Source: a virus
IMG/VR virus record: IMGVR_UViG_3300005613_002598
Coordinates: 1-56,105 of that record
Strand: one strand, 5' to 3'
DNA: 56,105 nucleotides
The position numbers and the translations under genes are program-made. Of the stretch, positions 3,188 to 41,487 are shown piece after piece. The notes below the pieces were generated by a model. It was not told the origin of the DNA and made no database searches. It saw only the letters and a program-made list of their open reading frames with translations. The number at the start of each line of letters is the position of its first letter. Position 1 is the stretch's first letter.

Positions 3188-5287
3188 ATGGCAGAAAATA
3201 TAGTTAGTCCTGGTGTATTTACTAGAGAAAATGACCTTTCATTTATACCACAAGGTGTTGCAGAAATCGGTGCGGCTATTGTAGGCCCTACTGTCAAGGG
3301 GCCGGTAAACGTCCCTATTAAAGTAAATTCTTTTAGTGATTATGCGGCTACCTTTGGTACTACATTTAAAAGTGGTAGTCAGTACTATGAGTTTTTCACA
3401 AGCATTGCGGCTGAATACTACTTGAGAAATTCAGGCGCACTTACTGTTGTAAGGGTTGCATCGGGGTCGGCAGCACCAGCCAGTGCTAGTGTTTACTCTA
3501 ATACTACTGTTGGTCTTACTTTTGCATCTGCATCTGTTACTATAGATGCATTTGGGGACAATCAAGAATTTCATATTGTAGATGGAACTACAACATATAG
3601 ATTTATAGCAAGAGCCGTCCTCCCGCCCGATGCGCCTAGTGGTAATTTGTGGTTTTTCCAAAGCCAGTCACTGGGACAAAGTGCCCAAAATTTAAAAAAT
3701 GAAATCAATAACGCAATACCAAACGTTGTTTCGGCCTCGATCGCCGGCCCCGCCTTGATATTATCCGGTTCAGCCGCCGGTACAAGGTATAATGGTATAT
3801 TTTTCGCTACATCCTCACTAAATGGTGCCGGGCCTTATTTTACTCAATCTACATTAGAGGGTGGTACTGATAGTACTACACAAACCAAAGTGTTTGATGT
3901 ATATACACTCGCTGATGGTGTAATTATGAATAATAGTGGTGCGTTGGGAACAAATGATGCACTTGCATTGGGAACTGCAGATAATGTACGTTGGGAAATC
4001 TCTAATGTAAATAACGAAACTGGTACATTCACATTCTCAATCCGTAGAGGTGATGATACTCAAAATCGTAAGATTTATCTTGAGCAGTATAACAATGTAA
4101 ATCTTGACCCAAATACAACTAACTATATTGGTAGAGCAGTTGGTACACAATACTTGACAATTCAAGATGCGGCTACCGCAGACCCATTCTTACAATTAAC
4201 TGGTGACTATCCAAACATTTCCAAGTATATAAGAGTGGCTAATATAGTAGATACCGTTGATTATTTAGATACCAATGGTGATGTTAGAGTTGCAGCCGCA
4301 TCTGCATCACTCCCAAGTGCGGGGTCTGGTTCTGAAGGTGGTGCGTTTGGGGGTGGACTTGGTGGTGATGTTAGTGCAGTTGAATTCAAAATGTTTGATA
4401 ACATTACTGAAACAAATGTACAGGGTCTTGACCCAGATACAGATTACACTACTGCATTTAGATTGCTAAAAAACCAAGATGAGTATGATATTAATTTACT
4501 TATCGCACCTGGTATGACATTAACCAACCACGGAACGGCAGTTGCTGAAGCAAAAACAGTTGTTGAAGATCGTGGTGATGTATTCTTAGTGGTTGACCCC
4601 GTATTACATGGAACTACTACATTAGCTACTGTAACATCGGCTGCTAATTCATTAATAAGTTCTTACGCCGCTACTTACTGGCCATGGGTTAAAATCAGAG
4701 CAACTAGATTGAATAGAGATGTTTGGGTTCCACCAAGTGTGGTGATGCCTGGTGTATTGAGTTACAATGATAGTGTTAGTGCAGAATGGTTCGCACCAGC
4801 CGGTCTTACTCGTGGTGGTATTGATATAGCAGTTCAAGCAGAACGTAAATTGACTAAGGCTAACCGTGACACTCTTTATGATGGCCGTGTTAACCCAATC
4901 GCTACTTTCCCAGGACAGGGCGTGACTGTATTCGGTCAGAAAACTCTTCAGAAAAAGGCAACTTCATTGGACCGTGTTAATGTTCGAAGATTGTTGATTA
5001 ACTTGAAAAAGTTTATCGCATCTACTTCAAGATTCTTGATTTTCGAAAATAACACATCTGCAACAAGAAATAGATTCTTGAATACAGTAGTTCCTTATAT
5101 GGAATCAGTACAACAAAATCAAGGTCTTTACGCATTCCGTGTTATCATGGATGAAACTAACAATACACCTGATATTATAGATAGAAATATTCTTAAAGGT
5201 GATATTTACATTCAACCAGCTAGGGCAGCTGAATTCATTGTGATTGATTTTAATATTCTTCCAACTGGTGCGCAATTTGGAGAATAA
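3188..5287 (+). CDS. Contractile tail sheath protein (gp18-like)
   Basis: The 699-residue protein has the standard sheath N-terminus (SPGVFTREND, then IGAAIVGPTVKGP) and the conserved C-terminal domain with NVRRLLINLKKFI, FENNTSATR and a final DFNILPTGAQFGE. The central part (about 95-420) is a variable, Gly/Ser-rich insertion domain that would face outward. T4 gp18 is 659 residues, so the length fits. It forms the contractile outer tube that drives DNA delivery in myoviruses. It is preceded by a candidate late promoter and followed by a strong terminator. Confidence 0.95.
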   Translation: MAENIVSPGVFTRENDLSFIPQGVAEIGAAIVGPTVKGPVNVPIKVNSFSDYAATFGTTFKSGSQYYEFFTSIAAEYYLRNSGALTVVRVASGSAAPASASVYSNTTVGLTFASASVTIDAFGDNQEFHIVDGTTTYRFIARAVLPPDAPSGNLWFFQSQSLGQSAQNLKNEINNAIPNVVSASIAGPALILSGSAAGTRYNGIFFATSSLNGAGPYFTQSTLEGGTDSTTQTKVFDVYTLADGVIMNNSGALGTNDALALGTADNVRWEISNVNNETGTFTFSIRRGDDTQNRKIYLEQYNNVNLDPNTTNYIGRAVGTQYLTIQDAATADPFLQLTGDYPNISKYIRVANIVDTVDYLDTNGDVRVAAASASLPSAGSGSEGGAFGGGLGGDVSAVEFKMFDNITETNVQGLDPDTDYTTAFRLLKNQDEYDINLLIAPGMTLTNHGTAVAEAKTVVEDRGDVFLVVDPVLHGTTTLATVTSAANSLISSYAATYWPWVKIRATRLNRDVWVPPSVVMPGVLSYNDSVSAEWFAPAGLTRGGIDIAVQAERKLTKANRDTLYDGRVNPIATFPGQGVTVFGQKTLQKKATSLDRVNVRRLLINLKKFIASTSRFLIFENNTSATRNRFLNTVVPYMESVQQNQGLYAFRVIMDETNNTPDIIDRNILKGDIYIQPARAAEFIVIDFNILPTGAQFGE

Positions 5288-5394: not shown

Positions 5395-7083
5395 GTGAAC
5401 ATATCCGATATTAAAAAATTATATAATAATTCCGGCCGGGGATTTTATAATATAGTGAAATTTAAGCACCCAAAGCTATATATTAAACTCAAAAACGGAA
5501 AGGGAAGAACTATACCTGAATCATTGTATTTACTTATGAATGAATGTAATCAGCCAATGTGTACTGTATGTAAAACTGCGCCAGCTAGATTTATATCTAT
5601 TAAAAATGGCTATACTGATTTTTGTAATAAGAAGTGTTATGAAATGGTACATGGTGCTCGTATTAAGGAAATCGCTAATACGGGAGTATATAAAAATGTC
5701 GGGAAAAAGGCTAAATCTACATTTTTGAAAAACGGTGGGAATTATAATGATACTGTAGCTAGGGGTAGAATTACCAAAAAAGAAAAATATGGCGATGAAA
5801 ATTATAATAATCGCGATAAATGTATTGCTACAAATATTAAAAGATACGGAACTAAAGTCCATCCAAACGTAAATAAATCTACTATTAGCCGAATTAACTC
5901 TAATCAGATAGGATTTAAATCAGAAAAATATAAACAATATTTGAAAGATAATGGAGTGGAAAATGCAAGTCAGATTCAATCTGTCCGTGATAAAAAGGCT
6001 AAAAGTAATTTTAAACGCATGATGGTTAGTATGGTCAATGGTAATAGACTTCAACAAAAAGTAATACCATTATTTACTATTGATGATTATGTGGGGCAAC
6101 ATACCATGTACCCGTTTGAATGTAGTGAGTGCGGCAATAAATTTGCGGATAAAGTATTAAATGGAAAAATACCAAGATGCCTTAGCTGTAATCCACTATA
6201 TTCAGTAAAATCATTGAAACAACGAGAAGTATACGATTATATTAATACAATATATAATGGTGAAATTTTATATAATTGTAGATCGGTATTATCAAACAAT
6301 AATGAATTAGATATATACATTCCAGAAAAAAATATTGCAATTGAATATAATGGGAATTATTGGCATTCTGAATTATTGGGAAAAGATAAAAAATATCATA
6401 TAGCGAAAACCGAAGAATGTGAAAAACTCGGAATTCAATTAATTCATATATTTGAAGATGAGTGGCTTAATAAGGAATATATAGTAAAAAATAGAATTAA
6501 ATATATTCTAAATGTTGAATCGGGTAAATTGTATGCAAGAAATTGCACTATAAAGGAAATATCGGCTTCTGATAAAAATAAATTTCTCCTTGATAATCAT
6601 TTACAAGGTCCAGATAAATCAAAAATAAAACTTGGAGCGTTTTATGATAATGAACTGGTATCTGTTATGACCTTTGGTGGTCTGAGAAGAGCCCTTGGGT
6701 CTATACAAGTAAATAATCATTATGAATTATATAGGTTTTGTTCTAAGATTAGAATTATTGGAATAGCAAGTAAATTATTAACGTACTTTATTCGAAATTA
6801 CAGTCCAGAAAAAATAATAACTTATGCTGATAGAAGATGGTCAAATGGTAAATTATATGAAGCTATTGGATTTACTAAGGTATCAAATGGAACTCCTAAT
6901 TATTGGTATCTTGATGGAAATATGAATAGAATTCATAGATATACATTCCGTAAGGGAATATTATCAAATAAATTGGCCGATTTCAATCCTCAGTTAACGG
7001 AATGGCAAAACATGCAACGAAACGGATATAATAGAATATGGGATTGTGGTAGCTTAAAATTTCAATTAAACTTAAAAACTTGA
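5395..7083 (+). CDS. Free-standing homing endonuclease with Vsr-like nuclease and C-terminal GNAT/Mom-like domain
   Basis: The 562-residue protein starts at GTG. Two Cys4 zinc-knuckle-like clusters are visible (CTVC...CNKKC near 52-80 and CSEC...CLSC near 242-265), separated by repeated KYGxxN-type DNA-binding helices. Around 275-380 there is a Vsr/EDxHD-type PD-(D/E)XK nuclease core with NELDIYIPEKNIAIEYNG and YWHSE. The last ~170 residues (LGAFYDNELVSVMTFGG, ELYRFC, YADRRWSNGKLYEAIGF) resemble the acyltransferase-like fold of Mom-type proteins. It lies between complete sheath and tube genes, so it is an intergenic mobile gene rather than an intron or intein. TGA overlaps the next promoter motif. 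Confidence 0.8.
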   Translation: MNISDIKKLYNNSGRGFYNIVKFKHPKLYIKLKNGKGRTIPESLYLLMNECNQPMCTVCKTAPARFISIKNGYTDFCNKKCYEMVHGARIKEIANTGVYKNVGKKAKSTFLKNGGNYNDTVARGRITKKEKYGDENYNNRDKCIATNIKRYGTKVHPNVNKSTISRINSNQIGFKSEKYKQYLKDNGVENASQIQSVRDKKAKSNFKRMMVSMVNGNRLQQKVIPLFTIDDYVGQHTMYPFECSECGNKFADKVLNGKIPRCLSCNPLYSVKSLKQREVYDYINTIYNGEILYNCRSVLSNNNELDIYIPEKNIAIEYNGNYWHSELLGKDKKYHIAKTEECEKLGIQLIHIFEDEWLNKEYIVKNRIKYILNVESGKLYARNCTIKEISASDKNKFLLDNHLQGPDKSKIKLGAFYDNELVSVMTFGGLRRALGSIQVNNHYELYRFCSKIRIIGIASKLLTYFIRNYSPEKIITYADRRWSNGKLYEAIGFTKVSNGTPNYWYLDGNMNRIHRYTFRKGILSNKLADFNPQLTEWQNMQRNGYNRIWDCGSLKFQLNLKT

Positions 7084-7112: not shown

Positions 7113-7601
7113 ATGGCAGAACTAATCGATCCAAATGAGTTGATGTTTAAAACATTTCAACCAAAACAAAACCACAGATTTATCATGTATATTGATGGTA
7201 TCCCATCCTTCATGGTCAAAGCTGTTGCTCGTCCAAATGTAACTACCAATAAAGTTACATTAGACCACATCAATACCAAACGTCATATTACTGGTAAATC
7301 AGAATGGCAGGATATCACTTTAACTCTATATGACCCAATTGTACCATCAGGTACTCAAGCCGCTATCGAATGGTTCAGATTACATTATGAATCAGTAACA
7401 GGTCGTGCTGGATATGCTGACTTTTACAAAAAAGATGTTACTATCAACGTATTGGGTCCGGTTGGTGATAAAGTAGAAGAATGGACTTTAAAGGGTGCAT
7501 TCATTGTAGGTATGACTCCATCGGCATTGGATTGGGCAGAAGATGGATTTTCAACAGTTGAACTTACTTTGGCTTATGACTATGCCATACTACAGTTCTA
7601 A
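7113..7601 (+). CDS. Tail tube protein (gp19-like)
   Basis: This 162-residue protein matches the T4 gp19 tail tube family in size (T4: 163) and pattern: N-terminal QNHRFIMYIDGIPSFMVKA, then HITGKSEWQDITLTLYDP, and C-terminal TPSALDWAEDGFSTVELTLA. Hexameric rings of it form the inner tube through which DNA passes. It has GAGG 12-15 bases before the ATG, one of the few recognisable ribosome-binding sites here. It is separated from the sheath gene only by the inserted homing endonuclease. Confidence 0.92.
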   Translation: MAELIDPNELMFKTFQPKQNHRFIMYIDGIPSFMVKAVARPNVTTNKVTLDHINTKRHITGKSEWQDITLTLYDPIVPSGTQAAIEWFRLHYESVTGRAGYADFYKKDVTINVLGPVGDKVEEWTLKGAFIVGMTPSALDWAEDGFSTVELTLAYDYAILQF

Positions 7602-22933: not shown

Positions 22934-23977
22934 GTGAACAAGTATATTGAAATTCTGCGGAACTTAAAGGAAGAGTCCACAACCAATGATAATCCAAATT
23001 CTAGGATATTGTTGGTTGACGGACTCAACCTTTTTATTAGGTCATTTGCTGCAACGCCTGTTGTAAATGATAATGGTGAACATATTGGGGGAATTACTGG
23101 TTCCCTTTTGAGTATGGGGTATACTATTAAGATGCTAAAACCTACTAGAGTGATTGTTTGCTTCGATGGTAAAGGTGGTTCTGTAAGACGTAGAAAGTTG
23201 TATGATGGGTATAAATCAAATCGTAAAGTTTCTCAGAAAGTTTTTAGACCAAATACATATTCATTGGAGGAAGAAAAGGTATCTATGACTAGACAAATGT
23301 CTAGGTTGATAGAGTATATGGACAATCTTCCAATAACCACGTTGGCTATTGATAATATAGAAGCAGATGATGCTATCGCGTATATCACACAACAAATATA
23401 CAATCAGGAAGAGTGTTTTATTATGTCTTCCGACAAAGATTTTTTACAGTTGGTTGATGATAGAGTTCGAGTTTGGTCTCCTACAAAAAAGAAACTATAT
23501 GACCGTGAATCTGTATTTGATGAATTTGGGGTACACTCTCATAATTTTTTAGAGTATCGTTCAATAATTGGTGATAAATCAGACAACATAGGTGGTATTA
23601 AGGGAGCTGGTCCAAAGTCTCTTAAAAAGCAAATTCCAATACTTTTTGATAGTGAATCGGTTGGTATTCATAAAATAATTGATTATGTTTGTAATTCTAA
23701 CAGTAAGTCAAAATTGATTGAAACTATTCGAGACAGTAAACCAATCTTAGAACGTAACTATCAGTTAATGCAGTTACGTGATGTTGATATTTCTGGATTT
23801 GCCAAATCATCAATAATGGATTCTGTTAGACAACCAATTAATAGATTAAATAAGTTAGCTATAACTAGAATGTTAATTCAAGATATGATGAATACTTCTA
23901 TAAAAAATCCAGATGTATGGATACGTGAAGTATTTACAACCCTAAATGTTATGGCCGATAAATCCCATAGTGTATGA
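22934..23977 (+). CDS. 5'-3' exonuclease / RNase H (FEN family)
   Basis: The 347-residue protein, starting at GTG, has the FEN/PIN active-site acidic motifs: RILLVDGLNLF (Asp near 28), VIVCFDGKGG, IEADDAIAY, MSSDKDFLQLV and a helix-hairpin-helix region IIGDKSDNIGGIKGAGPKSL. In T4 the equivalent Rnh removes Okazaki primers. A stand-alone copy makes sense because the PolA-like protein at 16361 lacks this domain. The gene ends in a 4-base overlap with the helicase start (ATGA). Confidence 0.88.
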   Translation: MNKYIEILRNLKEESTTNDNPNSRILLVDGLNLFIRSFAATPVVNDNGEHIGGITGSLLSMGYTIKMLKPTRVIVCFDGKGGSVRRRKLYDGYKSNRKVSQKVFRPNTYSLEEEKVSMTRQMSRLIEYMDNLPITTLAIDNIEADDAIAYITQQIYNQEECFIMSSDKDFLQLVDDRVRVWSPTKKKLYDRESVFDEFGVHSHNFLEYRSIIGDKSDNIGGIKGAGPKSLKKQIPILFDSESVGIHKIIDYVCNSNSKSKLIETIRDSKPILERNYQLMQLRDVDISGFAKSSIMDSVRQPINRLNKLAITRMLIQDMMNTSIKNPDVWIREVFTTLNVMADKSHSV

Positions 23978-25275
23978 CAGATAAACTTAGTGAATATGGT
24001 TATAATTTTCAGATAAAAGTTTTGGCTTCTCTTTTCAAAGATAAGTCATTTCTCAATCAAGTTATTGATATATTAGAAACCAATTATTTTGAGAGTGAAG
24101 CAAATCAGTTTATCATTGATGTAGTTCGTGAATATTTCCAACAATACAAAACATCACCATCGATGGAAGTATTGAAGGTTAAAATTACTGAAATAGAAAA
24201 TGATGTTCTAAAAGAAATGGTTGTTGACCAAGTTAAGCAAATTTGGAAACACTTGGAATCGGATGATTTAGATTTTGTAAAAGAAAAAACTCTTGAATTT
24301 TGTAAAAATCAAAAATTAAAGTCAGCTATCATGGATTCTGTCAATCTACTAAAGAACGGTAGGTATGATGAAATCAAAATGAAGATTGACACTGCAATGA
24401 AAGCAGGTGCCGACAGAGATGTTGGACACGAATACATACAACATATTGATGAACGATATGAAGAATCGGTTAGAAATACAATCACTACAGGTTGGGATAT
24501 TATAGATGATATTACATCTGGTGGGTTAGGTGCTGGTGAACTTGGAGTTGTAGTAGCTCCAGCTGGTATTGGAAAATCTTGGTTACTGGCCAATGTAGGA
24601 GCAAATGCTGTTCGTTCTGGATTAAAGGTAATTCACTATACACTTGAATTGAATCAGGCTTATGTTGGGTTGAGATACGATAGTATTTTCACTGGTATCG
24701 CCAATCAAAATTTGAAATACAATATTGATGAAGTAAAGAGAATTGTTGGCAATATCAGAGGTGATTTGTTAATCAAGTATTATCCAACAAAAACAGCAAC
24801 AACTAATACATTATCAAGTCATATTGAAAAATGTAAGATACAAGGGTTTAATCCAGATTTGATAATTGTAGATTATGCCGACCTTTTGAGGTCTTCGATA
24901 ACATCCAGAGAAATTAGACATGAATTGGGTAGTATCTATGAGATGTTACGTGGGTTGGCTGGTGAGCAAGAATTGCCAGTGTGGACCGCTAGCCAAGCTA
25001 ATAGATGTCATATTTTAACTGATGTAGTAGAAACTGAAAACGGTAAGATAGAAATTGGTAAAATAAAAGAAGGTGATAAAATTTTAACTCATAATGGTTA
25101 TAAAAAAGTAACTAAAGTTTTTCCAGTTGAAAAACAGCCGGTGTATAAAGTTACATTAAAATCTGGAAAGGAAATAACCATTTCAGCTAATCACGATTTG
25201 CCTGTTATGCATGGGAAATTGAAATCGGTAGCAACTGGATTAAAAGTCGGTGATAAATTATTTACAAGGAAATAA
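23974..25275 (+). CDS. Replicative DnaB/gp41-like helicase, N-half fused to split intein N-part
   Basis: Residues 1-344 are the N-terminal domain and most of the RecA-like motor of a DnaB-type helicase. Walker A is APAGIGKS (195-202), and Walker B is LIIVDYADLL near 296-305. Residues 345-433 are an N-intein beginning at Cys345 (after TASQANR), with GKIKEGDKILTHNGYKKV and a block-B-like ISANHD, then TAA. The C-half lies 11 bases downstream in another frame with its own ATG. After trans-splicing the helicase would be 450 residues (T4 gp41 is 475). It unwinds DNA at the fork. Confidence 0.92.
   Translation: MTDKLSEYGYNFQIKVLASLFKDKSFLNQVIDILETNYFESEANQFIIDVVREYFQQYKTSPSMEVLKVKITEIENDVLKEMVVDQVKQIWKHLESDDLDFVKEKTLEFCKNQKLKSAIMDSVNLLKNGRYDEIKMKIDTAMKAGADRDVGHEYIQHIDERYEESVRNTITTGWDIIDDITSGGLGAGELGVVVAPAGIGKSWLLANVGANAVRSGLKVIHYTLELNQAYVGLRYDSIFTGIANQNLKYNIDEVKRIVGNIRGDLLIKYYPTKTATTNTLSSHIEKCKIQGFNPDLIIVDYADLLRSSITSREIRHELGSIYEMLRGLAGEQELPVWTASQANRCHILTDVVETENGKIEIGKIKEGDKILTHNGYKKVTKVFPVEKQPVYKVTLKSGKEITISANHDLPVMHGKLKSVATGLKVGDKLFTRK
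25006..25272 (+). other. Split intein N-part (helicase)
   Basis: An 89-residue N-intein starting with Cys. It includes the block A region ending EIGKIKEGDKILTHNG and block B with SANHDLPV. It resembles the gp41-class split inteins known from metagenomic phage helicases (about 88-residue N-parts). It ends directly with a stop codon. Confidence 0.88.
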
Positions 25276-25286
25276 AGAATTTATAA

Positions 25287-25748
25287 ATGAAAATGCATAA
25301 TTTAAATCCAAAAGAGTTTGCGATGGATGAAATCGTTTCGATTGAATTAATTGGCGAAAAAGATACTGTAGATATTACAGTTGAAGATACACATATGTTT
25401 TTTGCTAATGATGTATATTCACATAACTCGGCATTGGAAGATGATGTAATTGGCGCTGAAAAGATTTCCGAGGATTATAGTAAAATCATGACAGCTGATT
25501 TTGTTGTTTCATTATCTCGTAAATTGGAAGATAAGGTGGCTGGGACTGGTAGAATTCATGTGATTAAAAACAGATTTGGACCAGATGGTATTACATTCCC
25601 AACTAAAATGAATGCATCAAATGGTAAGATAGACATTTATGATAGCCAATCTACTGATGGGAAAACAACGCAAAAATCAATGGATAATGGCGAGGATTAT
25701 ACTAGAAAATTATTGAAAAATAAATTCAAAGAACTAACTTCTGGATAG
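25287..25748 (+). CDS. Split intein C-part fused to helicase C-half
   Basis: Residues 1-47 are a C-intein with VDITVEDTHMFFANDVYSHN: blocks F and G with the penultimate His and terminal Asn at the splice junction. Residue 48 (Ser, codon at 25428) is the +1 nucleophile. Residues 48-153 (SALEDDVIGAEKISE, VVSLSRK, HVIKNRFGPDG) are the C-terminal part of the gp41-like helicase motor. The insertion point, just after QANR, is in a conserved DnaB motif. Protein trans-splicing with the product of 23974 is required to rebuild the helicase. Confidence 0.9.
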   Translation: MKMHNLNPKEFAMDEIVSIELIGEKDTVDITVEDTHMFFANDVYSHNSALEDDVIGAEKISEDYSKIMTADFVVSLSRKLEDKVAGTGRIHVIKNRFGPDGITFPTKMNASNGKIDIYDSQSTDGKTTQKSMDNGEDYTRKLLKNKFKELTSG

Positions 25749-27818: not shown

Positions 27819-28610
27819 ATGTTGATTAAAGAGATACCGAAGTCTTTAGCAGTACCATTTATACAACAATATCATTATAGTAAGATACTACCAAGATTAA
27901 CAAAGCATTATATTGGTTTTTTTGAAGATGATAAGCTAGTAGGAGTGGTAACGCTTGGTTGGGGTACACAACCCTTACAAACCATTAAAAAGATATTTCC
28001 AAATAAACAATTCACCACTACCGATTATTTTGAAATTGGGAAGATGTGTTTTATCCCTGATAAAAACAATTCTAATTGGGGGTCTTATGCATTATCACAA
28101 CTCATCAAGTGGATAAAGAAAAATTTAGATATAAAATTTCTATATACTCTTGCTGATGGAATCATGGGTAAGTGTGGTTATGTATATCAAGCATCAAATT
28201 TCATTTATATTGGTAAATTTAAAACTGATGTATATCTCGACGAATCTACTGGTGAAAAAATACACCCACGAAGTGCAAAGGAGTTGTGTAAAGAAAATGC
28301 TCAGATACTAGGTAAATCAAAGGTTTTTTGGTTAACTCATGAGTTTTGTGAATACAAAAAAATATCAAGAATTAGAGGATTGATGTTTAGATACATTTAC
28401 CCATTGGATAAATCAAATAGAAAACTTGTTTACAATTTATATGGTAATCTACCATATCCAAAACAAAGTGATTTACTTTTTGAAAAACGAGTTAATCTTG
28501 GTAAATTTGAAGTGGTACCTATGCCAAAATTCAACATGGATGTGTTCAACCACAATTATCAAAAGTATGGAATAAATGAGAAGTCCAAAACATTTTTTAA
28601 TTTTGGATAA
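27819..28610 (+). CDS. Mom-like DNA modification / GNAT-fold protein 1
   Basis: The 263-residue protein shows YHYSK, DKLVGVVTLGWG, FEIGKMCFIPD, GSYALSQLIKWIKKN and YVYQASNFIYIG in the order of phage Mom-like proteins, a GNAT-type fold linked to N6-carbamoylmethyl-type adenine modification in phage Mu. It is a diverged tandem paralogue of the next gene. The next ATG overlaps its TAA (TAATG). Actual activity on DNA is inferred; another acyl-transfer role is possible. Confidence 0.65.
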   Translation: MLIKEIPKSLAVPFIQQYHYSKILPRLTKHYIGFFEDDKLVGVVTLGWGTQPLQTIKKIFPNKQFTTTDYFEIGKMCFIPDKNNSNWGSYALSQLIKWIKKNLDIKFLYTLADGIMGKCGYVYQASNFIYIGKFKTDVYLDESTGEKIHPRSAKELCKENAQILGKSKVFWLTHEFCEYKKISRIRGLMFRYIYPLDKSNRKLVYNLYGNLPYPKQSDLLFEKRVNLGKFEVVPMPKFNMDVFNHNYQKYGINEKSKTFFNFG

Positions 28611-29398
28611 TGCGGGAATGTGGAAAACATTATTGCGATACATCGCGGGTTACAATTCGTGAAATAAAAAAGTCAGTAGCTGAGGATATGGTGGTTAAAT
28701 ACCATTACTCTCATACCTGGACATCGTGTCGTTACGCATTAGGTGTGTTTTATAAAAATGACACGCCCGATGTGTTGGGTAACTTTGAAGAGTTGATAGG
28801 ATGTTTGGTGTATGGGTTTCCAGTTGGTAGATTAACTGTAAAATCAATTACAGATGATTTACAGAATGATGAGTGCTTGGAATTAACCCGAATGTATATC
28901 CACGATGGGTATGGTTCGAACATTGAATCATATTGTATATCACAATCATTCAGATGGTTAAAGGAAAACGCACCAAACATAAAGGTGTTAATTAGCTATG
29001 CAGACCCCGAACAAAAACATGAAGGCAAAGTATACCAAGCAACGAATTGGTTATATCAGAGTGGTGATGATATAAAGTTAGTTCCCAGTTATTGGTTTTC
29101 TTTTACAAATCCTCATAAATGGATACATGAACGAAGTGTAGGTGATAAGTGGGGAACTGTAAGTGTTTCCTCACTTAAAACAATACTTGGTAAAAATGGT
29201 ATATCTGAGTTTTGGACAAGACCTATGGCTAACAAACATAGGTATTTACAGATACTCACAGATAAAAGAGAAAAACGTAAAATTATCGATAAGCTAAAAC
29301 ATCCAACGAAACCATACCCAACAACATCAACAAACTATACTGACTTAATTGAAAGACACGAAACTTACGAGCCAGAAAATCAAGTAAGTTTTTGGTAA
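28610..29398 (+). CDS. Mom-like DNA modification / GNAT-fold protein 2
   Basis: The 262-residue protein has the best Mom-family pattern: KYHYSHTWTSCRYALGVF, LIGCLVYGFPVGR, LELTRMYIHDGYG, SQSFRWLKEN, ISYADPE and GKVYQATNWLYQ. These are typical of proteins annotated as Mom-family adenine modification enzymes in many T4-like phages. An N-terminal Cys/His pair (CGKHYC) is present. It lies beside a paralogue, a ParB-like protein and a glycosyltransferase, suggesting a DNA-modification group that would protect phage DNA from host nucleases. Confidence 0.7.
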   Translation: MRECGKHYCDTSRVTIREIKKSVAEDMVVKYHYSHTWTSCRYALGVFYKNDTPDVLGNFEELIGCLVYGFPVGRLTVKSITDDLQNDECLELTRMYIHDGYGSNIESYCISQSFRWLKENAPNIKVLISYADPEQKHEGKVYQATNWLYQSGDDIKLVPSYWFSFTNPHKWIHERSVGDKWGTVSVSSLKTILGKNGISEFWTRPMANKHRYLQILTDKREKRKIIDKLKHPTKPYPTTSTNYTDLIERHETYEPENQVSFW

Positions 29399-34039: not shown

Positions 34040-34735
34040 ATGAAGAAGATATCAATTACTGAATTAATCAAACGTTATAACTTGGCAGGTAATATTGAAT
34101 CTGTCAAAATCAATTCTACTGATGATGGTATGAGTGTTGAATTCATATCGGATGACAAAACTCTTTTGGGTAAAGTATCATCGAATGAATCTAAATTTCC
34201 GAATGGTGAATTTGGCGTGTACACCACTGCTCAGCTAAAATCTCTACTATCCATTCTAAATGATGAAATTGCAGTTACCCACAAAGATGGCTCTATTAGA
34301 TTCAAAGATAATATAACATCTGTTGACTATGTGTTATCTGATTTATCGATAATACCAGATGTTCCTGAGCTGAAGCAAATACCAGAGTTCGAAGCTAATA
34401 TCAAATTAACTGATGATTTCATCAATACATTTATAAAATCTAAATCAGCTCTATCTGATGCCGACACTTTTACATTTTTAAGTAAATCAGGTGTTCATCA
34501 AATCATACTTGGGTATTCAACTCTAAATACAAATCGTGTTACTATTGAAGTAGATGCCGAAGTTTCCAGTGATGTTAATCACATTTCATTTTCATCTTCT
34601 TATTTAAAAGAAATACTTTTAGCAAATCGTGATAGTGAAACGATGAATATGATGATTTCATCTCAGGGGCTTTGTTATTTGGAATTTGTAAATTCTAATT
34701 TTTCCACAAAATACTACATGGTAGAATTGAAATGA
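34040..34735 (+). CDS. Sliding clamp (gp45-like)
   Basis: The 231-residue protein matches the length of T4 gp45 (228) and its position just after the polymerase. Typical stretches are MKKISITELIKRYNLAGNIE, FGVYTTAQLKSLLSIL and a C-terminal beta-rich YYMVELK. The ATG at 34040 is chosen because it follows a promoter-like element; upstream in-frame codons to 33977 would lie inside the polymerase gene. In T4 the clamp also activates late transcription, so it may do so here at the TTGATATTTATA motifs. Confidence 0.85.
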   Translation: MKKISITELIKRYNLAGNIESVKINSTDDGMSVEFISDDKTLLGKVSSNESKFPNGEFGVYTTAQLKSLLSILNDEIAVTHKDGSIRFKDNITSVDYVLSDLSIIPDVPELKQIPEFEANIKLTDDFINTFIKSKSALSDADTFTFLSKSGVHQIILGYSTLNTNRVTIEVDAEVSSDVNHISFSSSYLKEILLANRDSETMNMMISSQGLCYLEFVNSNFSTKYYMVELK

Positions 34736-35940
34736 AATTCTGGGATGTTGATATAAAACCAAAGGGATTTGACTTCTATGCTGAGAAAAAGGCTCTGATT
34801 GAAAATCTAGACACTCTGGCAGCAATGAGTGTCGAAGAACAGACCTTGTATAAAAAGTGGGTCGAATTGCAAGACCCAGATATTATAAAAAACAAATCAA
34901 CAATAGCTAGATATTATGATATCCAATGGAGTCCTACTGATATCTTTGACTATGATAAAACTATAAATGAAATTAACAATCTTGACCCATATGTTGAAAT
35001 AGTTTCAGATAACGACTCCACAAAGTGGAGCTATATACGTAGAATGATTCATACTATGAGTTGGACGCCTAATCCTGGTAGAAATGTTAAAATTAATATT
35101 AAGGATAGAGCTAGTGGTAAACTACTTGGTCAAGCAAGCTTAGCGTCTGATGTTACATCATTGGCAGTCAGAGATAAGTATATTGGTTGGGATAAGGTAA
35201 ACAAATTTCAAGATGGTAAGTTGAACAACACTAGTATAGCATCTACAATTGTGTGTACCCAACCACTTGGTTATAATTTCTTAGGTGGTAAGTTGATAGC
35301 CATGATGATTACTACATCGACAATTCGTGATTATTGGAAATCAAATTATGGTCAAACGCTTATTGCAATTGGTACTACATCCCTATATGGTATTCATTCT
35401 CAGTATAATGGAATTCCCCATTATAAAACATTAGGCGAAAGTAGTGGTAAGATTAGTATCAAACCTGATGATGAATTCTATGAACCTTGGCACCAATGGT
35501 TAAAAGAAAATAAAGAAGATTGGTATAAAACCCACATTACTGAAGAACACGCGCGAAATGGTATGAACATGGGAGTGGGTAGAAATGGACCCGTAAGTGG
35601 TATAAAGCAAAAAATTCTACATAAAATATTTCAAGAATGTGGTATTAAATCATCTAAATACCAACATGGATTTGCTAGAGGTGTATATCTAGCCATGATA
35701 TACGAGAATGGTTCGGAATTCTTGAGAAATGAAATTCCAGAATCCAATCTCATAATGAAGACCAAGTTTGAACAAGATGTAGATTACATTACTAAATGGT
35801 GGAAATCTAAAGCAATCAAACGATATACGAAATTGTATAACGAAAAACGATTAAAACCTGGCCATCTTTATTACATAGATGCTATTGGAATTGATTGGGA
35901 AACTATGAAACAAAAATATTTAAACGAAGTAGGAAGATGA
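34732..35940 (+). CDS. DruA-like (DUF4338) protein
   Basis: The 402-residue protein has the DUF4338 core seen in DruA of the Druantia defence system: GKLLGQASLASDV, VRDKYIGWD, STIVCTQPLGYNFLGGKLIA, RDYWKSNYGQTLIAI, TTSLYG and HYKTLGESSGKI. Relatives are known in phages without the rest of the Druantia system. It overlaps the clamp stop (ATGA) and the dUTPase start, so it is a replication-operon member. The role is unknown; DNA binding or modification is possible. Confidence 0.75.
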   Translation: MKFWDVDIKPKGFDFYAEKKALIENLDTLAAMSVEEQTLYKKWVELQDPDIIKNKSTIARYYDIQWSPTDIFDYDKTINEINNLDPYVEIVSDNDSTKWSYIRRMIHTMSWTPNPGRNVKINIKDRASGKLLGQASLASDVTSLAVRDKYIGWDKVNKFQDGKLNNTSIASTIVCTQPLGYNFLGGKLIAMMITTSTIRDYWKSNYGQTLIAIGTTSLYGIHSQYNGIPHYKTLGESSGKISIKPDDEFYEPWHQWLKENKEDWYKTHITEEHARNGMNMGVGRNGPVSGIKQKILHKIFQECGIKSSKYQHGFARGVYLAMIYENGSEFLRNEIPESNLIMKTKFEQDVDYITKWWKSKAIKRYTKLYNEKRLKPGHLYYIDAIGIDWETMKQKYLNEVGR

Positions 35941-36356
35941 AACTAAAATTCAAAAAATTACACAAAGATGCTGTTGTTCCCAAGATTGCAAATCCTGGTG
36001 ATGCTGGTGCAGATTTGACAGCAATATCTGTTGATTATGATATCAATAGCATAATCACTTATGGGACTGGTATAGCTGTTGAAATACCTGAAGGGTATGT
36101 TGGATTGATTTTCCCCAGAAGTTCTATTTATAAGAAGCAGTTACTATTAACAAATTCAGTGGGAGTAATAGATTCAGGATATCGTGGAGAGATTAAATTC
36201 AAATTTTGGGGAGACCGAGAATCTGATGTTTATAAAATTGGAGATAGAATTGGTCAATTAGTAATTATACCTATTCCAAGTGTTGAATGGGAAGAAAGTG
36301 AAGAACTTACTGATTCGGCACGTGGTGAAGGTGGATTTGGAAGCACTGGGGTATGA
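35937..36356 (+). CDS. dut: dUTPase
   Basis: The 139-residue trimeric dUTPase has all five motifs: PGDAGADLTA (1), PRSSIYKK (2), GVIDSGYRGEIKF (3), RIGQLVIIPI (4) and ARGEGGFGSTG (5). It hydrolyses dUTP to dUMP, lowering uracil incorporation and feeding dTMP synthesis. The ATG at 35937 (ATGA overlap with the upstream TGA) fits the conserved N-terminus better than the in-frame ATG at 35895. Confidence 0.95.
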   Translation: MKLKFKKLHKDAVVPKIANPGDAGADLTAISVDYDINSIITYGTGIAVEIPEGYVGLIFPRSSIYKKQLLLTNSVGVIDSGYRGEIKFKFWGDRESDVYKIGDRIGQLVIIPIPSVEWEESEELTDSARGEGGFGSTGV

Positions 36357-36979
36357 TGACTAATAAACAAAATTCTCTTTGGGTGGAACGATACCGCCCT
36401 CAAGGTTTAGATGGGTATGTTGGTAATGAACATATCTTGGAAAAGGTAAGGGTATATATCGAAAGTGAAGATGTACCACACTTGCTTTTATACGGACAAG
36501 CTGGTACGGGTAAAACTACATTGGCTAAAATCATCACAAACCAAATTGATTGTGATACACTTTATGTCAACGCATCAGACGAAAATAGCGTTGATACTGT
36601 TAGAGACAAGATTAGGGGGTTTGCATCTTCTATGGGATTCAAAAAGTGGAAGATTGTAGTATTGGATGAATGTTTGGATGAAAATACATTAGTATCCGTA
36701 TTACGGGATGGTGACGAAGTTAAACTTCCGATTAAAGATTTAGATGAAAAAAATGATTTAGTTAAATCTTGGAATGTTGAAAAACAAGAAATACAATGGA
36801 GGCCATTTTATCATTGGGACAAGGGCATCCAGAATGTATATGAAATTGAACTAGAAAACGGTGAAATTGTTGTTTGTACTGAAGACCATAAATGGTACGT
36901 TGAAGGTAGTAAAGGAATCCCGATTGTTGTGAAAACAAAAGATTTACATAAATATGAACATATTTTATCACCACAATGA
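36353..36979 (+). CDS. Clamp-loader large subunit (gp44/RFC-like), N-half fused to split intein N-part
   Basis: Residues 1-106 are the start of a gp44/RFC ATPase: LWVERYRPQGLDGYVG, Walker A GQAGTGKTTLA (48-58) and the first part of Walker B, KIVVLDE. At Cys107, in the middle of the DExx box, an N-intein begins: CLDENTLVSVLRDGDEVKLP, later VYEIELENGE and CTEDHKW (block B). It stops after residue 208. The rest of the loader lies at 38008-38616, beyond a homing endonuclease. Trans-splicing is needed for an active ATPase, because Walker B is interrupted. Confidence 0.93.
   Translation: MMTNKQNSLWVERYRPQGLDGYVGNEHILEKVRVYIESEDVPHLLLYGQAGTGKTTLAKIITNQIDCDTLYVNASDENSVDTVRDKIRGFASSMGFKKWKIVVLDECLDENTLVSVLRDGDEVKLPIKDLDEKNDLVKSWNVEKQEIQWRPFYHWDKGIQNVYEIELENGEIVVCTEDHKWYVEGSKGIPIVVKTKDLHKYEHILSPQ
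36671..36976 (+). other. Split intein N-part (clamp loader)
   Basis: A 102-residue N-intein begins with Cys (codon TGT at 36671) right after VVLDE. It has the TEDH block B. A TGA follows immediately. The partner C-part is at 37882-38007. Confidence 0.88.
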
Positions 36980-37028
36980 GATTATTTAACTAATTAATCA
37001 CAACCCTTATACTTATGTAAAAGGACAT

Positions 37029-37901
37029 GTGATGATTAAACCAGATACTCGTAAAAAGCTAAGGGTTGCTGCTATAAAGAATGGATTAGGTGGTGTAGTC
37101 TTAGTAGATGTTTGTTGCACTAAATGCGATAATATATACAAGGGTATAGTAAACCAACTAATTTGTAATTCATGTAAAATAAATGGATATACCCAAGTTT
37201 GTAAACATTGTAGTAATGATTACACTGCATTCCATAATGATAGAACGTACTGTTGTGAGTCTTGTAAGAAATCTAAACCTTGGCTACATCGTCCCCGTGA
37301 TAAATCGTTTGGTGAAAAGGTAAGTAAGGCCAAGAAGGAATGGTATCAAACCGATGACGGTAAAGCATTTGCTCAACATATCGGTAAAGTAAATTCTATA
37401 AAAATGAAAGAATTTAATAAAACGCCAGAAGGGATTGCAAACATAAAACGAAATGCTAAGTTATCCTCTATTCGTATGCGGGAGAGAATAGCCAAAGGTG
37501 AATTCACACCTCCCATTACAAATTCATTTACACACTGGGACGCAGCTATTGATGGTAAGAAATTTAGAAGTTCATGGGAAGCGTGTTTTTGGAATTCTAA
37601 TAAACATTTGTTATATGAAAGTAAGGAATGTAGAACTACTAAGCAATCAAATGGCCGGGTTTATATTGGTGATTTTTTCGATAAAGAAGCTAAAATACTT
37701 TATGAAATAAAACCAAAATCATTTTACATTAAACAATCCGATAAAATAGATGCATTGATAAATCATTGTAAAGATAATGGATACAAGTTTAAATGGATAA
37801 ACGAATACAATATCATAGATTACATTAATGAGTGTGATTTTGACACCAATGATAAGCTAAAACAACTTAATAAATTAAAAGATGGAATTAAAACGAATTA
37901 A
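37029..37901 (+). CDS. Homing endonuclease between split-intein halves (PD-(D/E)XK-like)
   Basis: The 290-residue protein starts at GTG 37029 or ATG 37032, after AAAAGGA. The N-terminus holds several Cys pairs (CCTKCDN, LICNSCK, VCKHCS, CCESCKK) likely binding zinc. The C-terminal part has KKFRSSWEACFWNSNK, then YIGDFFDKEAKILYEIKPKS, a PD-(D/E)XK-type arrangement (Asp...Glu-Ile-Lys) common in phage homing nucleases. Its last 20 bases overlap the start of the loader C-half. It is presumably the mobility enzyme of the fractured clamp-loader locus, cutting intein-free alleles. Confidence 0.85.
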   Translation: MMIKPDTRKKLRVAAIKNGLGGVVLVDVCCTKCDNIYKGIVNQLICNSCKINGYTQVCKHCSNDYTAFHNDRTYCCESCKKSKPWLHRPRDKSFGEKVSKAKKEWYQTDDGKAFAQHIGKVNSIKMKEFNKTPEGIANIKRNAKLSSIRMRERIAKGEFTPPITNSFTHWDAAIDGKKFRSSWEACFWNSNKHLLYESKECRTTKQSNGRVYIGDFFDKEAKILYEIKPKSFYIKQSDKIDALINHCKDNGYKFKWINEYNIIDYINECDFDTNDKLKQLNKLKDGIKTN

Positions 37902-38007
37902 AATAAAATCAATAAGAAAATTAGAAGAACAGCGACGTGTTTATGATATTTCAGTCGAAGGTAATCATAATTTCTTTATAGGTGAAACTGAAACACTAAC
38001 TCATAAT
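37882..38007 (+). other. Split intein C-part (clamp loader)
   Basis: 42 residues from ATG to the terminal Asn, with blocks F (VYDISVEGNHNFF) and G (LTHN). It starts inside the final codons of the homing endonuclease gene. Confidence 0.88.
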
Positions 38008-38616
38008 TGTGATTATCTTACACCAAATGCACAAGCAGCACTTCGTAATCTGATGGAAACATTCTCTAAATCTACTCGTTTCATCTTAACGTGTAACTAT
38101 GTAGAAAAGATTATTGACCCAATCCAATCTAGATGTCAAGTGTTTGGCATCACACCACCATCTAAAGCAGAGGTGGCAAAACGACTACACACAATTCTTC
38201 AACAAGAGTCTGTTGAATTTGATGTGAAAGACTTGGGTGTGTTGGTTAATAGTGGGTATCCTGATATCAGAAGAGTTTTGAACTCGGCACAACGGCAAGT
38301 AGTAAATGGTAAATTGAAGATTGATAAAACTTCAATGATACAAGCAAACTATATGACTGAGTGTTTACAAGTTCTAAAGTCGGATAGTGATACGAAAATT
38401 AAGTTTACAAAAATCAGACAAATTATCGCAGACAGTAAAGTAAAAGATTTTACATCGTTTTTTAAGTTTTTGTATGATAATGTAGATGAGTTTGCCGGAG
38501 ACCACGTAGGTGAGGTTATTGTAAAATTGGCTGATGCACAATACAAAGATGCATTTGTTACAGACAAAGAAATCAATATAATGGCAACAATTTTGGGTAT
38601 TATTGAATTTACTTAA
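37882..38616 (+). CDS. Split intein C-part fused to clamp-loader C-half (gp44/RFC-like)
   Basis: Residues 1-42 form a C-intein: VYDISVEGNHNFFIGE...LTHN with the penultimate His and terminal Asn. The +1 residue is Cys43 (TGT at 38008). From there CDYLTPNAQAALRNLMETF, FILTCNYVEKI and the arginine-finger SRC motif (DPIQSRCQVFGI) complete the AAA+ domain and C-terminal collar. Spliced exteins give VVLDE|CDYLTPNAQ, a Walker B/LDEAD box with Cys in place of Ala, and a protein of 308 residues (T4 gp44 is 319). Confidence 0.93.
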   Translation: MELKRIKIKSIRKLEEQRRVYDISVEGNHNFFIGETETLTHNCDYLTPNAQAALRNLMETFSKSTRFILTCNYVEKIIDPIQSRCQVFGITPPSKAEVAKRLHTILQQESVEFDVKDLGVLVNSGYPDIRRVLNSAQRQVVNGKLKIDKTSMIQANYMTECLQVLKSDSDTKIKFTKIRQIIADSKVKDFTSFFKFLYDNVDEFAGDHVGEVIVKLADAQYKDAFVTDKEINIMATILGIIEFT

Positions 38617-39562: not shown

Positions 39563-39850
39563 ATGGGAAAAAAGTTTCAACCAATTCAAGATAGAGTTGT
39601 TATTCAACCTATTCATGAGGATGTAACACAAGGTGGTGTTATAATTCCCGACACATCTCAAGATGGTATTCTACAGGGTACTGTAATTGCAGTTGGCCCC
39701 GGTCTCCTATTAATTACTGGTGAGCATGGGGCAATGCAATGTAAACCCGGAGATGTTGTGTATTACAGTCGAATGACTGCCCAACGATTTGACGATGAAG
39801 ATAACCTTTATGTTGTAAAGGAATCTGAATTACTAACAATTGTAAAATAA
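39563..39850 (+). CDS. groES: GroES co-chaperonin
   Basis: The 95-residue protein matches Cpn10: FQPIQDRVVIQPIHED, a mobile loop TQGGVIIPDTSQD, GTVIAVGPG, KPGDVVYYSRM and a C-terminal VVKESELLTIVK. It would cap the phage GroEL encoded 11 bases downstream. T4 has only the GroES analogue gp31. Here the cognate pair is encoded. Confidence 0.93.
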   Translation: MGKKFQPIQDRVVIQPIHEDVTQGGVIIPDTSQDGILQGTVIAVGPGLLLITGEHGAMQCKPGDVVYYSRMTAQRFDDEDNLYVVKESELLTIVK

Positions 39851-39858
39851 GAAAATAA

Positions 39859-41487
<1,629 letters not shown>

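Follow-up and report, generated by a model that had tools for sequence, protein, structure and literature searches.

Some phage genes are reportedly broken in two by a split intein, with an endonuclease open reading frame (ORF) between the halves, the split falling between intein blocks B and F, and an apparent control element accompanying the endonuclease. Eight enzyme types are said to be affected, among which gp44, the T4-type clamp-loader ATPase, is neither confirmed nor excluded. Here, we analysed a stretch of 56,105 nt from an uncultured phage (hereafter the window; one record fragment, positions 1-56,105 of the IMG/VR viral record IMGVR_UViG_3300005613_002598), in which gp44 is interrupted by a split intein and a free-standing nuclease gene. 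We consider it highly probable that a mobile split-intein/nuclease cassette sits in this gp44. We place the window gp44 in the fractured-gene class (Dassa et al. 2009, NAR 37:2560), as that class is portrayed where it is cited in PMC7090010, PMC10448857, and PMC11766414; it shares with the class a conserved enzyme gene broken by a split intein and an endonuclease ORF between the halves. Unlike the Vsr-like EDxHD type of those genes, the window nuclease is, with moderate confidence, PD-(D/E)XK and TnsA-like, and the nuclease-free and re-fused contiguous alleles of one gp44 intein described below go beyond what characterizes the 2009 class. An essential replication ATPase is added to the class. 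Our literature search returned no paper that links split inteins to phage clamp loaders; since the search did not extend to the 2009 tables, priority for gp44 is unsettled.

Several other inteins resemble the window's in fold, host protein, or site. The gp41-1, gp41-8, NrdJ-1, and IMPDH-1 split inteins (Carvajal-Vallejos et al. 2012, to the extent cited in PMC11766414) have the Hint fold and split geometry in common with it, and NrdJ-1 is the best sequence-profile match to the gp44 intein among solved structures, but these inteins differ in host gene and site and share low sequence identity with it. The cyanobacterial DnaX mini-intein (7cfv) also lies in a clamp-loader ATPase and is the best single-sequence PDB match to a contiguous relative of the window intein (7.2e-9), whereas it is itself contiguous, bacterial, and without a nuclease. 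Its insertion point is, we presume, VIDE|CH. The archaeal RFC small-subunit inteins (NCBIfam NF003157-NF003159) lie in clamp loaders as well; their profile alignment is consistent with insertion at Walker A, the site of a second intein in some relatives of the window gp44, but they are contiguous and not at the window's Walker B site. The PhoH and terminase genes of Campylobacter phage IBB_35 are interrupted by inteins (PMC3322345). TerL and PhoH inteins (IBB_35, AceL-TerL) lie in other host genes, the TerL intein has a short N part, and the nuclease of phage phiS is fused to the N half; in other phages, TerL and PhoH carry a nuclease homologous to the window's within a split intein at DE|C.

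Layout of the gp44 locus and its intein

The locus comprises three ORFs on the plus strand, each in a different frame, at 36353-36979 (208 aa), 37029 or 37032-37901 (290 or 289 aa), and 37882-38616 (244 aa). The first begins with the gp44 N-extein (36353-36670, 106 aa), which ends in the VVLDE of Walker B and matches positions 3-109 of the phage clamp-loader profile phrog_168 (1.1e-33), and the third ends with the C-extein (38008-38616, 202 aa), which starts at the +1 Cys (CDYLTPNAQ) and matches positions 109-304 (3.9e-41). The parts matching this profile are residues 1-106 of the N half and 43-237 of the C half. Since the halves meet at phrog_168 position 109, the break lies exactly at VVLDE|CDYL inside Walker B with no gp44 sequence missing, and the predicted spliced clamp loader has 106 + 202 = 308 aa. 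The first-pass annotation, made from the sequence alone, had proposed these three ORFs, the cut in Walker B, and a rebuilt loader of 308 residues, and the ORF frames and the abutment on phrog_168 agree with it. Its nuclease ORF is also present and ends at 37901 as proposed, but the start is likelier the ATG at 37032 than the GTG at 37029.

No other clamp loader and no intact second gp44, a possibility raised in the first-pass annotation, was found in the window record. Likewise, carrier records of 162, 200, and 221 kb, none of them rated complete, hold gp44 pieces only, and intein-free records hold one intact gp44 gene each. If gp44 were dead and another loader substituted for it, the fracture would be decay; the window is merely a 56-kb fragment, which leaves room for such a loader. 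However, no other gp44 is present in the 162-221-kb carrier records, and both halves show a ratio of nonsynonymous to synonymous divergence (dN/dS) of about 0.05-0.17 against relatives, which indicates purifying selection. We regard a dead gp44 as extremely improbable.

The insert consists of an N part of 102 aa (36671-36976, followed by the TGA stop at 36977-36979) and a C part of 42 aa (37882-38007). The N part starts with Cys1, contains block B CTEDHKW, and scores 35.9 bits against NCBIfam intein_Nterm TIGR01445 (curated cut-off 24.5); the C part contains block F VYDISVEGNHNFFIG and block G LTHN and scores 33.1 bits against intein_Cterm TIGR01443 (curated cut-off 15.6). The longer Pfam intein model PF14890 matches both parts (1.1e-5 for the N part), each alone below the Pfam cut-off. 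The split point is canonical, between blocks B and F. The splicing residues C1, T70 and H73 of TxxH, N42, and C+1 are invariant in the 22-23 aligned sequences (23 for the N part), and the penultimate His of the intein is present in most relatives; the window reads CTEDH and LTHN|C. L107, a contiguous relative whose N part is 76% identical to the window's, was modelled at a predicted local distance difference test score (pLDDT) of 95, and its Foldseek matches to solved inteins reach E values down to 1.5e-9; the evidence for the Hint fold comes from this model of the relative. The profile matches, the conservation of the splicing residues, and the fold modelled for L107 support the assignment of the interruption as a split intein with the 102- and 42-residue parts first proposed, accompanied by a free-standing nuclease gene. 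The gp44 split inteins may serve as orthogonal ligation tools.

The sequence shows gp44 encoded by two genes that bear the two parts of one intein, with the nuclease gene and its own leader between the gp44 halves. In the mechanism we propose, the intein parts would associate after translation and splice, giving a 308-residue loader that would carry DECD in place of the DEAD or DESD of intein-free alleles. In a mixed infection, the nuclease would cut intein-free gp44, such as that of L010, at the Walker B codons, and repair would copy the cassette together with the +1 Cys codon into the recipient gp44. For the window gp44, trans-splicing and site-specific cleavage are both what we infer from sequence features.

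The C half, the nuclease, and the N part of the intein each served as a query to collect relatives from IMG/VR viral contigs. About 44 distinct alleles carry the gp44 intein, all at one identical point, normally (L)DE|C. In 33 of them, gp44 is fractured and all or much of a nuclease gene is present (a broken one in L137 and L144); in six, gp44 is split but the nuclease is absent or reduced to a remnant (L099, L104, L115, L116, L117, and L134); and five are contiguous cis-intein genes (L107, L120, L123, L125, and L156). The coexistence of empty, fractured, nuclease-free split, and contiguous states at one site offers tests of how split inteins originate and disappear. The same separate ORFs are seen in about 30 distinct loci drawn from different samples, and the start, leader, and ribosome-binding site of the nuclease are its own; false stops from assembly or sequencing errors in a contiguous intein with an in-frame nuclease domain are ruled out by this recurrence in independent loci.

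The +1 residue is Cys in every carrier, as splicing requires, and Ala or Ser (DE|A, DE|S) in the intein-free alleles inspected. This bears on whether the gp44 halves instead work unspliced as a non-covalent two-piece enzyme, as the split NrdA of phage Aeh1 reportedly does, with the intein parts as relics. Unspliced working enzymes encoded in pieces are known in T4-like phages (PMC2988022). However, the invariant splicing residues, the +1 Cys confined to carriers, and the purifying selection on the intein parts (dN/dS 0.03-0.19 in most pairs) all speak against relics, and the contiguous alleles, if unspliced, would keep an insert in the middle of Walker B. We therefore think a two-piece enzyme very unlikely and favour splicing.

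The gp44 intein was not seen in 50,697 records of cultured phages at the search sensitivity used; the matches there reach at most 37% identity and are mostly inteins of ribonucleotide reductase and TerL, with two unannotated. A scan of cellular genome contigs gave one match, contig L174 (JAHFUM010000010.1) of a 'Nitrosarchaeum' metagenome-assembled genome. Since this contig looks phage-like, with a fractured gp44 and T4-like neighbours, a cellular origin was rejected, and its placement in that genome is likely a binning error.

A 52-nt leader separates the N-half stop from the nuclease start. A predicted RNA hairpin (36976-37052; minimum free energy -17.5 kcal/mol, z -3.57, equally stable in none of 200 shuffles) spans the ribosome-binding site and start codon of the nuclease, and leader hairpins with z < -2 were found in about one third of the relatives folded. 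The motif TATTTATA occurs in 12 of 25 nuclease leaders, against 0.7 expected from shuffles, and lies within 60 nt upstream of the window genes at 171, 3188, 7113, 25796, and 43402; it is a candidate late-type promoter in phages of this group. The nuclease and C-half ORFs overlap by 20 nt, and the start of the C half within the last codons of the nuclease suggests translational coupling between them. Sigma-70 promoters and terminators in the cassette were at chance level only.

The nuclease and its association with Walker B

The nuclease gene (37032-37901, or from the alternative GTG at 37029) matches the endonuclease profile phrog_15427 (7.6e-20), carries CxxC motifs near its N-terminus, and gave an AlphaFold2 model with a pLDDT of 88. 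Residues E183, D214, and E225-x-K227 are invariant in an alignment of 31 homologues, an ExK-type active site that supports the PD-(D/E)XK-like reading of the first-pass annotation, and the gene shows dN/dS of 0.13-0.14 against relatives. Pfam TnsA-like_N matches at 0.014, below its cut-off. A fold search with the model found no PDB match at E <= 0.001, TnsA (1f1z, 1t0f) being reached at a template modelling score of about 0.3. The Vsr-like EDxHD type was considered and rejected, since the alignment contains no invariant His and the active site is of the ExK type; I-Bth0305I was merely a weak fold match.

A wider set was gathered by searches with the nuclease family alone. In it, many contigs, along with Salmonella phage S16 and Proteus phage PM2, have the helicase UvsW broken at DE|CH; the break lies at IDE|CHKF in a SNF2-type helicase (L215/L217), at YIDE|CAF in TerL of E. 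coli phage phiS and of Yersinia phage phiR1-RT, and at VDE|CQN in PhoH of Campylobacter phage CP20. The nuclease family is also present in Escherichia phage kaaroe, a relative that can be grown on E. coli K-12. Among 66 distinct nuclease sequences, an automatic tally placed DE|C upstream of 62, and L154, for which the script had chosen the wrong site, is the 63rd; with two contigs cut off at their ends (L247 and L249) left out, a DE|C junction in gp44, UvsW, the SNF2-type helicase, TerL, or PhoH stands beside the nuclease in 63 of 64 resolvable distinct cases, the C-side junction having been unresolved by the tally in 27 entries, most of which were then read by eye. The sole resolvable exception is L246/L248, where the nuclease lies elsewhere in uvsW and VDEAH is intact.

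The near-restriction to DE|C across unrelated nucleoside triphosphatases (NTPases) predicts that the nuclease recognizes Walker-B coding DNA. A family specialized for Walker-B/DExx coding sequence would explain why its relatives fracture UvsW, the SNF2-type helicase, TerL, and PhoH at DE|C, and the simplest reading would be that the nuclease is adapted to such DNA and has brought split inteins from one NTPase gene into other, unrelated ones.

Movement of the cassette and loss of the nuclease

The intein tree places the window with L099, L104, L105, L082, and L084 (support 99/95), whereas in the C-extein tree the window stands among intein-free phages (support 97/91). This conflict points to horizontal arrival of the intein. 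Constraining the window extein to follow L099/L104/L105 was rejected by the approximately unbiased (AU) test at p = 1.9e-5, a value to be read with the knowledge that the groups were picked after the intein tree had been seen. Synonymous divergence (dS) agrees with the trees. Between L104 and L105, it is 0.06 in the intein N part and 0.04 in the C part, against 1.11 and saturation in the exteins; between L118 and L120, the values are 0.18 and 0.05 against 1.24 and 1.36; between L141 and L145, about 0.5 in the intein against saturated exteins; and between the window and L082, 0.79 and 0.61 against 3.16 and 1.71. In the pairs L082/L084 and L141/L145, the intein N part, the nuclease, and the intein C part all have lower dS than the exteins. 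Similarity falls off within a few to about 20 bases beyond the intein borders, and the nuclease is under purifying selection across pairs (dN/dS 0.13-0.31). These comparisons indicate horizontal transfer of the intein, in most cases along with its nuclease, between the gp44 alleles of phages and into one and the same site; the mobility supposed in the first-pass annotation thus gains independent support from the tree conflict, the AU test, the low intein dS, and the selection on the nuclease.

Besides the choice of groups in the AU test, three observations weigh against a mobile cassette in the window gp44: the record is a fragment, and a second gp44 may lie outside the window; the window's own nuclease leader lacks TATTTATA; and deep distances of nuclease and intein are uncorrelated (Spearman 0.07). 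Overall co-divergence of nuclease and intein, addressed with a Mantel test, is unsupported at depth, and we retain only the agreement in shallow clades. From the deep mismatch, nucleases were likely exchanged between cassettes in the past. The mismatch would also fit an independent free-standing homing endonuclease that moves by itself through intronless homing and for which the split intein is no more than a safe site, as would the existence of nuclease-free split alleles; free-standing homing endonucleases are common in T4-like phages (PMC2988022). However, nuclease and intein form the same clades at the tips, dS is below that of the exteins for intein parts and nuclease alike in the two pairs above, and the family adjoins a split-intein junction at DE|C in nearly every resolvable case. 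An independent nuclease is an unlikely account, if less so than the two-piece enzyme, and the mobile cassette is preferred.

The fracture seems to be reversible. The L104 intein is near-identical to that of L105, but the L104 nuclease is gone except for its final bases. L120 corresponds to L118 without the nuclease and is contiguous, the old start codon of the C part now being an internal Met; it is nested in the intein tree among the fractured relatives L118, L136, and L150, whose nucleases form one clade (100/100). The contiguous join of L107 retains GGTATCGGTTATAATG, which matches the 3' end of the L108 nuclease (GGAATAGGTTATAGTG, encoding GIGY) and the C-part leader. Since a nuclease relic would be unexpected in a never-fractured intein, the direction for L107 was from fractured to contiguous. 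The origins of the contiguous L123/L125 and L156 are less certain. These cases indicate that fractured genes can re-fuse, or heal, into contiguous cis-intein genes and that the nuclease has repeatedly been lost. To our knowledge, the step from fractured to contiguous seen in the L107/L108 and L118/L120 pairs has not been documented before.

Further inteins and neighbouring genes

Eight relatives (L099, L115, L130, L141, L144, L145, L147, and L156) have a second gp44 intein, inserted at Walker A (GK|T). In six, this intein is atypically split, its N part being about 27-33 aa long; it is contiguous in L141, and no N part was found for it in L147. A gp44 with both inteins split (L099, L115, L144, L145, and probably L130) would need two trans-splicings. 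We lean slightly toward a wider scheme, in which one PD-(D/E)XK clade would be a Walker-B specialist that drives split inteins into DE|C codons in at least five different NTPase genes, the fracture would be reversible by re-fusion after nuclease loss, and the second, atypically split Walker A intein would be stacked in some relatives to give a three-piece loader. The tie of one nuclease family to Walker B and the healing of the fracture are the parts that may be new. An extra insert of 1.0-1.5 kb is present at Walker A in L144, L145, and L156.

The window encodes another split intein, in the gp41 (DnaB-like) helicase on the plus strand. The N half (23974-25275; phrog_19, 1.2e-67) contains an intein N part from about 25006 (QANR|CHILTD; TIGR01445 20.3 bits, slightly under the cut-off), and the C half (25287-25748; phrog_19) starts with a 47-aa intein C part (YSHN|SALED; TIGR01443 24.6 bits, over the cut-off). 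The break falls at QANR|S, and the halves are 11 nt apart, without a nuclease gene between them. By its insertion motif, this intein presumably resembles the known gp41-8. In contig L098, a split intein also breaks an IMPDH/GMP-reductase-like gene upstream of gp44 (114-2238, identified by eye), and an endonuclease-like ORF lies between the halves of that gene.

Elsewhere in the window, a 562-aa ORF resembling a free-standing homing endonuclease (5395-7083; phrog_3339, 6.8e-117) lies between a tail-sheath-like gene at 3188 and a tail-tube-like gene at 7113. A DruA-family protein (34732-35940; Pfam PF14236, 3.9e-18) is encoded between sliding-clamp-like and dUTPase-like genes; in other contexts, the name DruA refers to the Druantia defence system. 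Two Mom-like DNA-modification ORFs lying next to each other (27819-28610 and 28610-29398; phrog_1384) suggest that the phage genome is modified. GroES-like and GroEL-like genes, identified by eye from the translations, are adjacent in the replication region at 39563-41487.

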